Virus record (IMG/VR): IMGVR_UViG_3300043410_001111
Location: 1-44,875 of that record
Length of the DNA: 44,875 nt
Strand: one strand, 5' to 3'
Source: a virus
Shown here: piece by piece, positions 37,850 through 41,584 of the stretch
Layout: each line of letters begins with the position of its first letter
Numbering within the stretch: position 1 is the first letter of the stretch
The notes under the pieces: model-generated
The model's database searches: none
Told to the model about the DNA's origin: nothing
Seen by the model: the letters and a program-made list of their open reading frames with translations, nothing else
Made by a program: the position numbers and the translations under genes

Positions 37850-37923
37850 GCGGGTATGATGTAGAGGTAACCTGCTTCGTTGCCAACGAAGATTCACCAG
37901 TTCGATTCTGGTTACCCGCTCCA
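37850..37923 (+). tRNA. tRNA-Gly(GCC)
   Basis: Acceptor GCGGGTA / TACCCGC, anticodon loop TTGCCAA, T-loop TTCGATT, encoded CCA. The RNA array starts 6 bases after the CCA. Confidence 0.95.
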
Positions 37924-37929
37924 AGTTTT

Positions 37930-37991
37930 GGGATCAGTTCAGCAATCACCGCCCTAGGGCACTTTTTATTGGAAAAAAGCAAAGTGATCCC
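37930..37991 (+). ncRNA. Tandem RNA array, unit 1
   Basis: A 62-base unit closed by a 7-bp stem GGGATCA / TGATCCC. The 5' strand is followed by GTTCAGCAATC, the box shared by the units. An internal GCCCTAGGGC palindrome forms a small hairpin. The linker CGTTGATTTTA leads to unit 2. Confidence 0.75.
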
Positions 37992-38000
37992 GTTGATTTT

Positions 38001-38061
38001 AGGATTGTTACAGCAAACCAAATGCATTTGACTTGTAATCAAAAAAGCAAAAAGCAATCCT
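38001..38061 (+). ncRNA. Tandem RNA array, unit 2
   Basis: Closing stem AGGATTG / CAATCCT (7 bp), then TTACAGCAAACC. The interior is AT-rich with AAAAAAGCAAAAAG before the 3' arm. The linker is TGTTGAATAA. Confidence 0.75.
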
Positions 38062-38070
38062 GTTGAATAA

Positions 38071-38209
38071 AGGTTGAGTACAGCAAAACCAGTTTGGACC
38101 TAATAAGTCCTCCAGTATACGTTTTGCGTATACATTTAAGCACTCTCGCGTTAGTCGCGAGGCCATGAGTTCTTCGAATTGTCTCATATAAAACAAGTAG
38201 AACCAACCT
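38071..38209 (+). ncRNA. Tandem RNA array, unit 3, multi-hairpin
   Basis: Closing stem AGGTTG / CAACCT (6 bp), then AGTACAGCAAAACC. The 139-base unit contains four consecutive hairpins: GGAC/GTCC with a 7-base CTAATAA loop like an anticodon arm, GTATACG/CGTATAC, CTCGCG/CGCGAG and ATGAG/CTCAT. This multi-arm body on a closing stem resembles the tRNA-like module of bacterial YrlA-type Y RNAs. The linker is TGTTGATTTT. Confidence 0.75.
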
Positions 38210-38218
38210 GTTGATTTT

Positions 38219-38301
38219 AGAATGCCTTCAGTAAACCTTTCGGGAAAAAAACGCGCCTTATAAGTGTGTCTAGTGGTTCAAATCCACAAATCGTGCATTC
38301 T
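38219..38301 (+). ncRNA. Tandem RNA array, unit 4, with T-arm mimic
   Basis: Closing stem AGAATGC / GCATTCT (7 bp), then CTTCAGTAAACC. Near the 3' side GTGG-TTCAAAT-CCAC reproduces a tRNA T-arm, with a 7-base loop of canonical sequence. The linker is GTTGATTAA. Confidence 0.75.
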
Positions 38302-38310
38302 GTTGATTAA

Positions 38311-38368
38311 AGATTGAGTTCCGCAACTAACAAAAATTTGTATTGAAAAACAAAGAAAAGTTCAATCT
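38311..38368 (+). ncRNA. Tandem RNA array, unit 5
   Basis: Closing stem AGATTGA / TCAATCT, extended by a G-T pair, then GTTCCGCAACTAAC. The final linker TGTAGATAAAATGGAG leads into the leader of the Ro60-like gene, 22 bases before its ATG. Confidence 0.72.
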
Positions 38369-38390
38369 GTAGATAAAATGGAGAAGTGAA

Positions 38391-39827
38391 ATGTCTACTT
38401 TTGTAAATGCCTTGATTAACCAAGAAGCTCGCACTGAAAATGGTATGAAGGCTCGTGCTTCTACTGCCAATGCTTTGACTGACTTTTTCTTCAAGGCTGG
38501 TGCAATGCGTAAGCAAAACATTATCCCAACTTGGACCGCTGCTCGCGTAGAGAACGCTGATCTTGCTTGTCGTCTTGCACTATGGCTCCGTGATGTCCGT
38601 GGTGGTGCAGGTGAACGTAAGGCATTCCGTGATATTTTGTATGATCTTGCGAATACTGATGGTGATCGTGCTCATGCACTGATGCGCCGTGTTCCTGAGA
38701 TCGGTCGTTGGGATGACTTGCTCGTGTTGATTAACACTCCTCTTTGGGATCAAGCAGTATTCATGATCAAGTGCGCTCTCGAAGATAACAATGGTCTCTG
38801 TGCTAAGTGGATGCCTCGTAAGGGTAATGAAGCAGTAGTGCTTCGTAATGCTCTTGGTTGGTCTCCAAAGTATTACCGCAAGCGTCTGGTTGAGTTGACT
38901 AAGGTCGTTGAAACTCAGATGTGTGCAAAGGATTGGGATAACATTAACTTCAACCATGTTCCTTCTATTGCAGCATCTCGCTACAAGAAGGCTTTCAATC
39001 GTCACACTGAGAAGTATAAGGAATGGGCAACAAAGCTCGTTTCTAAGGATCCAGAAGTGGCGAAGGAAGTTAAGGTTAATGCTGGCGCTATCTTCCCTCA
39101 CGATGTTATTAAGCAGTTGTTTAACGTTGGTTGGGGATTATCTAGCTCAGTAAAGGATCTGTCAAAGGCAGAACTTGATGTGATCACAGCACAATGGGAA
39201 GCACTTCCTAACTATGTTGGCGATGCAAACATTCTTCCTCTAGTTGATGTATCTGGTTCAATGGTTGTTGGTGTGTCTGGTAACACTCGTGCATTGGATG
39301 TTGCGGTATCTCTTGGTCTGTATCTCGCAGACAAGAACAAAGGTAAGTTCAAGGATACGTTCTTGACTTTCTCTAGCGATCCTCAACTGCTTCACTTGAA
39401 TGGTAACATTGTCGATAAGGCAAATCAGATGAACACTTCTAAGTGGGAGATGTCAACTGACTTGCATAAGGCAATGGATAAGATCCTCAAGACAGCAATC
39501 GATGGTAATGTTCCTCAGGAAGAAATGCCAAACATGCTTCTGATCTTGTCAGACATGCAGTTCAATCAATGTACTCGCTTTGATGACTCTGCAATGGAAA
39601 TGATCAGTCGCAAGTATGAAGCAGCAGGTTACAATGTTCCTGCAATCGTGTTCTGGAACTTGAACGCTAAGGACAATGTCCCAGTGAAGCATGATGAATC
39701 TGGTGTGGCACTTGTATCAGGTTTCTCACCATCTATCTTGAAGGGTGTTTTGTCAGCAGACACTGATGAGTTCACTCCAATGGGTATCATGATGAAGACA
39801 ATCATGTCTGATCGCTATGATTTTTAA
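38391..39827 (+). CDS. Ro60-like protein: DUF2828 TROVE domain plus vWA domain
   Basis: A 478-residue protein of the DUF2828 group, which carries a TROVE (Ro60-type HEAT-repeat RNA-binding) domain and a von Willebrand A domain. TROVE part, about 1-275: TENGMKARASTANALTDFFF, then LALWLRDVRGGAGERKAFRD, GRWDDLLVLI and AKWMPRKGN. vWA part, about 280-478: MIDAS motif LVDVSGSM (about residue 285), the STDL Thr motif and LILSDMQF. Ro60 proteins bind Y RNAs and misfolded RNA and act in RNA quality control and decay. Five tandem structured RNAs lie directly upstream, the arrangement expected for a Ro/Y-RNA system. GGAG precedes the ATG. A strong hairpin follows the stop. Confidence 0.88.
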   Translation: MSTFVNALINQEARTENGMKARASTANALTDFFFKAGAMRKQNIIPTWTAARVENADLACRLALWLRDVRGGAGERKAFRDILYDLANTDGDRAHALMRRVPEIGRWDDLLVLINTPLWDQAVFMIKCALEDNNGLCAKWMPRKGNEAVVLRNALGWSPKYYRKRLVELTKVVETQMCAKDWDNINFNHVPSIAASRYKKAFNRHTEKYKEWATKLVSKDPEVAKEVKVNAGAIFPHDVIKQLFNVGWGLSSSVKDLSKAELDVITAQWEALPNYVGDANILPLVDVSGSMVVGVSGNTRALDVAVSLGLYLADKNKGKFKDTFLTFSSDPQLLHLNGNIVDKANQMNTSKWEMSTDLHKAMDKILKTAIDGNVPQEEMPNMLLILSDMQFNQCTRFDDSAMEMISRKYEAAGYNVPAIVFWNLNAKDNVPVKHDESGVALVSGFSPSILKGVLSADTDEFTPMGIMMKTIMSDRYDF

Positions 39828-40816: not shown

Positions 40817-40893
40817 GCCCCAGTAGTCCAATTGGTAGAGGCGCTTGACTTAGAATCAAGATGTTGGGAGTTCGAGTCTCTCCTGGGGCACCA
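40817..40893 (+). tRNA. tRNA-Leu(TAG) with short variable loop
   Basis: Acceptor GCCCCAG / CTGGGGC, anticodon loop CTTAGAA with TAG, T-loop TTCGAGT, encoded CCA. The variable loop is ATGTT, 5 bases, the same as in tRNA-Leu(TAA) at 21459, although Leu tRNAs usually have a long arm. Confidence 0.9.
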
Positions 40894-40923
40894 TTCCTAG
40901 AAACAACAAAAGGAAACTATGAA

Positions 40924-41466
40924 ATGAAAAATATTATCACAGCTGCTATTCTTTGTATGGCAGTGACTTCAGCATCAGCTGCAAGTCTTCCAGAGAAGAA
41001 GGCAACTCCTGCAGCACCAGCTCTTGAAGTTCCTTCAAGTTGGTACGTAGGCGTAAATGCTGGCGGCAATGTTCGTTCAAATCAGAATGTTCAGAACACA
41101 CCTGGTAACGTAGGTGGTGTCGTTGGTTATAATATCAATAAGAACTTTGCAATTGAAGCTACACTTGATCAAGCTTTCAAGAAAGGCAATGATGGTAAAG
41201 AAACTCGTGGTATGATTAATGGTGTTGCATCACCATTCTCATATTTTGGTTTCAAGCCATATCTTCTTGCTGGTATTGGTACACAAACAGCTGATGTTAA
41301 AAATGGTCTCAATGATACAAAGACCGTCTATAATGTTGGTGGTGGCGTGAAGTATGAACTCTCAAAGTCTTGGGAAATTGATACACGCTATCGTTATGTT
41401 AACACACTTAACAATACCAATCGCGATGCAAATATCGTGACAATGGGTGTTAATTATAAATTTTAA
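40924..41466 (+). CDS. Outer-membrane beta-barrel protein, Opa/OmpA-like
   Basis: A 180-residue protein with a signal peptide (MKNIITAAILCMAVTSASAA) and an Ala/Pro-rich linker, then alternating strands (SWYVGVNAGGNVRS, GGVVGYNINKNFAIEATLDQ, YFGFKPYLLAGIGTQTA, VYNVGGGVKYELSKSWEIDT) ending NIVTMGVNYKF with the C-terminal Phe recognised by the Bam machinery. This is the 8-strand opacity/OmpA barrel. In a lytic phage it might alter the host surface, for example by blocking other phages. AAAGGA precedes ATG 40924; the longer frame runs back into the tRNA. Confidence 0.9.
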   Translation: MKNIITAAILCMAVTSASAASLPEKKATPAAPALEVPSSWYVGVNAGGNVRSNQNVQNTPGNVGGVVGYNINKNFAIEATLDQAFKKGNDGKETRGMINGVASPFSYFGFKPYLLAGIGTQTADVKNGLNDTKTVYNVGGGVKYELSKSWEIDTRYRYVNTLNNTNRDANIVTMGVNYKF

Positions 41467-41471
41467 AAAAT

Positions 41472-41584
41472 ATGGTGTGTGATACAATTTGAGTGCTCGC
41501 CTGCCTATTCGTTGGCCCGAGCCAGAAACGTGAAAAATGACTCGGTTCACTATCCTTGTCTGTCACGTTAACATCACACACCAT
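41472..41584 (+). ncRNA. Structured RNA with 12-bp closing stem
   Basis: ATGGTGTGTGAT (41472-41483) is perfectly complementary to ATCACACACCAT (41573-41584). Inside are GCTCG/CGAGC and AACGTGA/TCACGTT hairpins and no open frame of note. It fills the gap between the beta-barrel gene and tRNA-Ser(TGA). The closed multi-arm layout resembles the RNA domains at 33215-33643; the family is unknown. Confidence 0.7.

Follow-up and report, generated by a model that had tools for sequence, protein, structure and literature searches.

Introduction

In the closest described system, the gene for a Ro60-fold protein (Ro60 or Rsr) stands beside small Y RNAs, such as YrlA (RF02553), that combine a terminal stem and a conserved internal motif with an exchangeable head; in YrlA a T arm, a capped acceptor-like stem and a D arm make up a permuted tRNA-like module in the head. 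A survey published in 2014 is said to have found such RNAs in more than 250 bacterial and phage species, each of which had one or more RNAs with a tRNA-like domain. We describe here a locus of similar design in IMG/VR virus record IMGVR_UViG_3300043410_001111, positions 1 to 44,875 (hereafter the window, a 44.9-kb phage fragment with 23 tRNA genes predicted by ARAGORN). In the window, an array of five stem-closed RNA units (37930-38368) sits between a tRNA-Gly gene and a DUF2828 gene. These units belong to a class of phage RNAs that share a handle, made of a covarying closing stem and a box, that are linked to the DUF2828 gene, whose product has a predicted Ro60 fold, and that often carry heads mimicking parts of tRNAs.

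Although several phage units have the permuted tRNA-like module as well, the phage and YrlA systems differ in four respects: (i) the phage protein is a DUF2828 protein, with about 14% identity to Ro60 structures; (ii) the phage box is nnTnCAGCAA, whereas the motif of the YrlA Rfam consensus is CGAAUGC / AaAcUuG (AUGC/AaAcUuG); (iii) phage loci often have two to six RNAs; and (iv) the anticodon-arm heads of phage units are without counterpart in YrlA. No unit reached the YrlA gathering score (best 46 bits, threshold 69) and, judged by sequence, the phage handle is distinct from the one in the Rfam model of bacterial Y RNA.

Phage Y RNAs near Ro60-type genes are not new per se. They were reported in mycobacteriophages and other phages in 2014 (Chen 2014, as cited in PMC12282133) and, as far as that citation describes them, they share with the present units that they are phage-encoded and adjoin a Ro60-type gene. 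Mycobacteriophage LeBron, whose protein is annotated as RNA-binding (Ro-like in relatives), has three units of the present class. For Listeria phage CKA15, abundant noncoding RNAs upstream of an Rsr-like protein were suggested by the authors to be Y RNAs, in a paper that gives no RNA structure (PMC12282133); the related phage P100 has three of the present units at the equivalent place.

Results

The features of the locus are the following.

37850-37923, plus strand: tRNA-Gly(GCC) gene (ARAGORN, Rfam), immediately 5' of the array and not itself a unit.
37930-37991, plus strand: unit 1; closing stem GGGATCA/TGATCCC; box CAGCA at 37940-37944; two-hairpin head, GCCC..GGGC and CTTTTT..AAAAAG.
38001-38061, plus strand: unit 2; closing stem AGGATTG/CAATCCT; box TTACAGCAA; anticodon-type arm in the head.
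38027-38043, plus strand: anticodon-type arm of unit 2, TTTGA-CTTGTAA-TCAAA; loop as in tRNA-Thr UGU.
38071-38209, plus strand: unit 3; closing stem AGGTTG/CAACCT; box GTACAGCAA; long head of multiple hairpins.
38219-38301, plus strand: unit 4; closing stem AGAATGC/GCATTCT; box CAGTA; anticodon-type arm followed by a T arm.
38252-38268, plus strand: anticodon-type arm of unit 4, CGCGC-CTTATAA-GTGTG; UAU-type.
38273-38287, plus strand: T arm of unit 4, GTGGTTCAAATCCAC.
38311-38368, plus strand: unit 5; closing stem AGATTGA/TCAATCT; box CCGCA; A-rich head, hairpin with an 8-nt loop.
38391-39827, plus strand: DUF2828/DUF7788 protein, 478 residues (Pfam, alignment, AlphaFold, Foldseek); N-terminal helical TROVE-like part and vWA domain.

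In all five units the closing stem begins with a purine followed by G, the box is positioned 9 nt past this conserved G (CAGCA in units 1 to 3, with the variants listed above in units 4 and 5) and GTTGA or GTAGA directly follows the 3' arm. The end of unit 5 is 22 nt from the DUF2828 start codon. Folding with RNAfold gave z = -2.85 versus shuffles for the multi-hairpin unit 3; the gain over shuffles was modest for the other units (z of -2.3, -1.9, -1.6 and -0.5 for units 1, 2, 4 and 5 respectively) and the case is therefore carried by comparative evidence. This also holds for the weak, A/T-rich anticodon-type arm of unit 2, which is absent from the best RNAfold structure and is supported by the comparisons below; it has the same loop as the tRNA-Thr of this phage on a different stem. 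A candidate Ser-UGA anticodon arm in unit 5 was dropped because its loop has 8 nt.

For the comparison, 80 homologous loci (46 non-redundant) were taken from viral contigs using the protein alone. Pairing was assessed on 5' halves chosen by the box and 3' halves chosen by CTGTT, ignoring complementarity, and the five positions 3-7 were scored. Within the 46 non-redundant loci, 64 of 73 box/terminus pairs were fully complementary at these positions, compared to 5.5 +- 2.1 when partners were shuffled (maximum 14 in 2000 trials). Compensatory changes on both sides were found at six of the seven stem pairs in 67 units (covariation score 0.956 versus 0.19 shuffled); we give more weight to the 64 of 73 because these 67 units were chosen for pairing. 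The protein-selected loci contain 210 stem-closed CAGCA boxes, 208 of them on the DUF2828 strand, and permuted boxes yielded 4-17. Taken together, the pairing and covariation tests demonstrate that a terminal stem links both ends of the units, and the common handle reads (A)G-stem-nnTnCAGCAA...stem-CTGTT, with a variable closing stem of 6-8 bp. An earlier note, made from the window sequence alone, had described five tandem units with differing but pairing stems, a common box after the 5' arm, several hairpins in unit 3 and a T-arm mimic in unit 4; all of these were recovered, including the box in its two variants, and the covariation that it had seen within one genome extends to the homologous phages. 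It had overlooked the anticodon-type arm of unit 4 and named neither anticodon-arm heads nor the likeness to Class I RNAs treated in the Discussion.

Units accompany the DUF2828 gene, and the reverse holds in most records. Of the 69 loci whose upstream sequence spans 700 nt or more, 68 have one or more units on the strand of the gene. A search of viral contigs with an RNA-only pattern, AGGATNNNTNCAGCAAN{20,50}ATCCTGTT, retrieved at least 120 stretches, versus one with a scrambled box. Of 19 examined records that this pattern retrieved and that measure at least 50 kb, 15 encode DUF2828 (31 of 50 with short fragments included), compared to 5 of 30 tRNA-bearing viral control records of the same minimal size (p = 2e-5). 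Of these five controls, three (G068, G073 and G080) have boxes just 5' of the gene, and in G083 boxes cluster ~40 kb from it. At least 681 of about 50,700 phage records contain a DUF2828 gene; a scan of bacterial genomes for the units matched only two contigs, both from Endomicrobium metagenome-assembled genomes.

In isolated phages, units lie upstream of the gene in P100 (three units, 22 nt after TTGACA-17-TATCAT, an 11/12 promoter match) and, by eye, ahead of it in Enterococcus ZJGS3 and Bacillus FADO; downstream of it in LeBron, E. coli ECML-1 (four units, amid tRNA genes), Pseudomonas Milchi and Cronobacter S13; and elsewhere up to 3 kb off. They are also found near the gene in Synechococcus BUCT-ZZ01 (three units), Campylobacter CP30A (at least one, a second by eye), Fusobacterium Fnu1, Pseudoalteromonas J2-1 and Stenotrophomonas DLP_6, and KVP40 has one candidate unit adjoining a tRNA.

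Upstream of both the units and the DUF2828 gene, P100 further contains a ROOL-like RNA (RF03087; locus L082, 4968-5519; 86 bits, cut-off 99.1, E = 5e-16), which may be the hugely abundant noncoding RNA of CKA15. Because of this RNA, the abundant CKA15 transcripts may be either the present units or a ROOL-like RNA. The Rsr-like protein of CKA15, CKA15_055, was detected in purified virions (20 peptides, 57% coverage; PMC12282133) and, judging from the related phages cka16 and P100 and from its matching size, is probably a DUF2828 protein. Given its presence in virions, Ro60-like particles may thus enter the cell with the DNA.

The vWA domain of the window protein has an intact metal ion-dependent adhesion site (D286, S288, S290, T356, D388), and the DxSxS motif, T356 and D388 are invariant in an alignment of 40 sequences. 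An AlphaFold model built from this alignment (predicted local distance difference test, pLDDT, of 76; predicted template modelling score of 0.72) replaced a single-sequence model that was unusable (pLDDT 40). Foldseek ranked Ro60, Rsr or TROVE structures at positions 1 to 9 in the PDB (E of 9e-7 to 3e-6, template modelling scores of 0.43-0.59, identity 13-17%), the Ro60 of Thermus phage phiLo among them. By sequence, only DUF2828 and DUF7788 exceeded the Pfam cut-offs and the Pfam TROVE models gave no match for the window protein; the Ro60 vWA Pfam model matched weakly in 7 of 48 family members (best E 0.02), and sequence profiles against the PDB did not convincingly recover Ro60, which the fold search alone did. 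The likeness of the protein to Ro60 therefore lies in its predicted fold and not in its sequence family. In two records, G012 (L134) and G020 (L128), DUF2828 is divided between two reading frames, with the break around query residue 135-140; those of G012 are ~1.1 kb apart, perhaps owing to an intron or an inserted element.

The heads were compared with tRNA parts in 140 non-redundant units. T-loop (TTCRANY) hairpins were found in 30 of them, versus 0.1 in dinucleotide shuffles, and the anticodon-loop pattern in 45, versus 2.6; a control loop pattern gave 8 versus 6.4. As T loops fit the anticodon-type pattern too, they were removed, which left 32 units. Most of these have perfect anticodon loops, CUNNNAA, with anticodons including UGU, CAU, UCU, UUU, GAA, GUA, GCA and UGA. 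Identical loops stand on differing paired stems, CTTGTAA on as many as seven. In the 94 anticodon-type loops of a set of 382 non-redundant units, position 36 is U in 56, A in 29, G in 7 and C in 2; it is thus U or A in 85 of 94, compared to 56% of the 2117 tRNA genes that the loci of these units contain (U 35%, C 23%, A 22%, G 20%), in a chi-square comparison that ignores relatedness.

The Rfam YrlA model recognises, in several longer units, a permuted tRNA composed of a T arm, a capped acceptor stem and a D arm, with E values of 1.3e-9 in L004 (181-base search), 1.1e-7 in L005 (161-base search) and ~1e-5 to 5e-4 in other loci; this module was not found in the five units of the window. The YrlA model detects such heads better than ARAGORN, which reported only one permuted tRNA when run on doubled units.

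One head without tRNA likeness recurs in units of L003, L008 and L009 and in unit 1 of the window: GCC-loop-GGC, followed by a CTTTTT..GGAAAAAG hairpin, with the sequence kept between phages.

Discussion

The predicted fold agrees with the statement of the earlier note that the protein resembles Ro60 and TROVE-vWA proteins, through all nine top PDB matches. Its broader proposal, Y-like RNAs acting with a Ro60-like protein, is well supported by the fold, by the co-occurrence with the gene and by the YrlA-module matches in related phages, with the reservation that the handle differs from the bacterial Y RNA motif in Rfam. The guide function and the uses in RNA decay, tRNA quality control or defence that it also offered are conjectural. 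The note knew of no such array in a phage; this no longer stands for phage Y RNAs near Ro60-type genes, which PMC12282133 credits to Chen 2014, and appears to stand for the array and its handle. An open-access literature search returned no phage paper on DUF2828 and nothing on arrays with a CAGCAA handle, on anticodon-arm heads or on the link to Class I RNAs discussed below. The arrays, the handle and the anticodon-arm heads appear to be new.

A common handle bearing different tRNA parts next to a gene for a Ro60-like protein, as seen in many tailed phages, suggests a toolkit to fool or steer host enzymes that handle tRNAs. We consider it probable that the array encodes small processed RNAs of a Y-RNA-like class, bound through the handle by the DUF2828 ring, whose tRNA-mimic heads act as decoys against enzymes acting on tRNAs; we infer from the comparisons above that the protein binds the RNAs, that these are processed at their stem ends and that they serve as decoys. 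The handle (the closing stem of 6-8 bp and, just within the 5' strand of this stem, the unpaired nnTnCAGCAA box) would dock on the ring; we propose this role because the architecture parallels that of Y RNAs, in which a terminal stem and an internal motif serve Ro60 in this way, and because the units co-occur with the gene. Each RNA would add its own exchangeable head, often an anticodon arm, a T arm, both, or a YrlA-like permuted D/acceptor/T module, so that the ring would carry a collection of tRNA mimics. These would compete for tRNA enzymes and hold them off or redirect them during infection, chiefly host anticodon nucleases and other tRNA-targeting defences. A decoy role seems most likely in view of the many isoacceptors and the several arms that are copied, often more than one by a single phage.

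Four observations weigh against this explanation. Some heads have no tRNA likeness (the two hairpins of unit 1, and unit 3); the bias of the anticodon loops to U36 or A36 with A37 is not predicted by a decoy against any single known nuclease; the vicinity of the gene yielded no units in the isolates Ochrobactrum OC, Staphylococcus CF1 and Pectobacterium CBB; and T4-type RNA ligase 1 is present in only 8 of 37 DUF2828 records, which speaks against a constant tie to tRNA repair. A constant coupling of DUF2828 with this ligase, which we had considered, was rejected on the same count.

Alternatively, the RNAs might be adaptors in the manner of YrlA and RYPER, their heads connecting the Ro60-like ring with an exoribonuclease of the host or the phage, for instance polynucleotide phosphorylase (PNPase), and specialising it for structured RNA, with the tRNA likeness serving for docking. 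The Y RNA of D. radiodurans links Rsr to PNPase (PMC7790460; PMC8394870), the ring fold is predicted for the DUF2828 protein, and the permuted T/acceptor/D modules fit the Rfam YrlA model in many loci. However, most loci have several very different heads, many of them anticodon arms absent from YrlA, which would be superfluous for an adaptor to a single enzyme, and we hold this explanation to be unlikely, if the most serious of the alternatives.

The second main alternative concerns the modification of A37. Since U36-A37 and A36-A37 are the contexts of the modifications N6-threonylcarbamoyladenosine (t6A37) and N6-isopentenyladenosine (i6A37), the bias of the loops to U36 or A36 with A37 would fit a sponge or substrate set for the enzymes that modify A37, or a device requiring loops so modified. 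This seems improbable to us, as the bias may stem from the isoacceptors that are important for A/T-rich phages and as the T-arm and D/T heads are left unexplained.

That the stems are instead a cis-acting leader, through which the DUF2828 mRNA is regulated by its own protein and from which no free RNAs arise, is suggested by the last unit stopping about 20 nt before the start codon in the window and in many loci. The positions of other units argue against such a leader: in LeBron, Milchi, S13 and ECML-1 they lie 3' of the gene, in the last of these between tRNA genes, elsewhere they are up to 3 kb away, and those distant from the gene retain handle and heads. We regard a purely cis-acting role as very improbable. 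The arrays do stand amid tRNA genes and contain tRNA pieces, but that they are nothing more than the processing spacers of such a cluster and tRNA genes that have decayed or become permuted, with no role of their own, is scarcely credible, because the handle, a closing stem unrelated to tRNA together with the box, is kept in all units with compensatory changes, while anticodon-arm stems vary under constant loops and heads such as that of unit 1 are not tRNA-derived.

The handle also allows a second comparison. The Class I RNAs of Dictyostelium (RF01414), for which no example outside dictyostelids is described, start with AAG, end with CUGU, have a 6-bp covarying stem with an invariant 5' G and carry beside the 5' strand an 11-nt motif with T3, C6, C9, A10 and A11 (PMC7919456). 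The phage units show each of these traits, apart from the spacing within the motif described below. Further points of likeness are a length of 42-65 nt, a variable remainder and the place of the motif (CCUUACAGCAA in the Rfam consensus) right after the 5' strand of a variable stem of ~6 bp. G2, C25 and G27 are invariant in the phage units, with TT next in most, the invariance of G and C being partly imposed by the finder. The phage box is one nucleotide shorter, Class I RNAs having one more between the T and the C that follows it, and likewise between the conserved G and that C, and all motif letters are present. Other differences are that Class I RNAs are eukaryotic, come from scattered genes with a Dictyostelium upstream sequence element (DUSE) promoter element, and have as known direct binder the RNA recognition motif protein Rnp1A and no known Ro60 partner. 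Matches of the RF01414 model to the units by cmscan remain below gathering (best 35.4 bits versus 41.5); at E <= 0.1 they occur in 33 of 42 DUF2828 records (29 of 37, and 4 of 5 further ones) compared to 3 of 25 records without DUF2828 (p = 1e-7). Plants have DUF2828 proteins as well (PMC12344491). We tentatively suggest, as a possibility and no stronger, that phage units and Class I RNAs form one ancient family with a G-stem-nnTnCAGCAA...stem-CUGU handle and the DUF2828 branch of Ro60-like proteins as partner, which phages turned into a carrier of anticodon-arm and other tRNA decoys; the likeness may reflect common descent or convergence on one handle.

This likeness offers a concrete candidate partner and a relative for an RNA class deemed exclusive to social amoebae. 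DUF2828 genes, mostly annotated as hypothetical or RNA-binding, gain a candidate class of RNA partners with a recognisable handle, and the anticodon-arm heads make testable a tRNA-decoy role of Ro60 particles that has so far merely been suggested for YrlA.

Other features of the window

The window also encodes T4-type replication proteins: a family B DNA polymerase, a UvsX-like RecA, a DnaB-type helicase and a gp44-type clamp loader. Neighbours of the array include genes for a 2-oxoglutarate-Fe(II) oxygenase (PF13759; 39906-40643) and a DNA/RNA non-specific endonuclease (PF01223; 42353-43162). Just downstream of, and antisense to, a gene for an OmpA-like beta-barrel protein (40861-41466), the minus strand carries at 41477-41583 a match to Atu_At1 (RF02496; 70.8 bits, cut-off 60), a small RNA of Rhizobiales, which suggests a host in that order.
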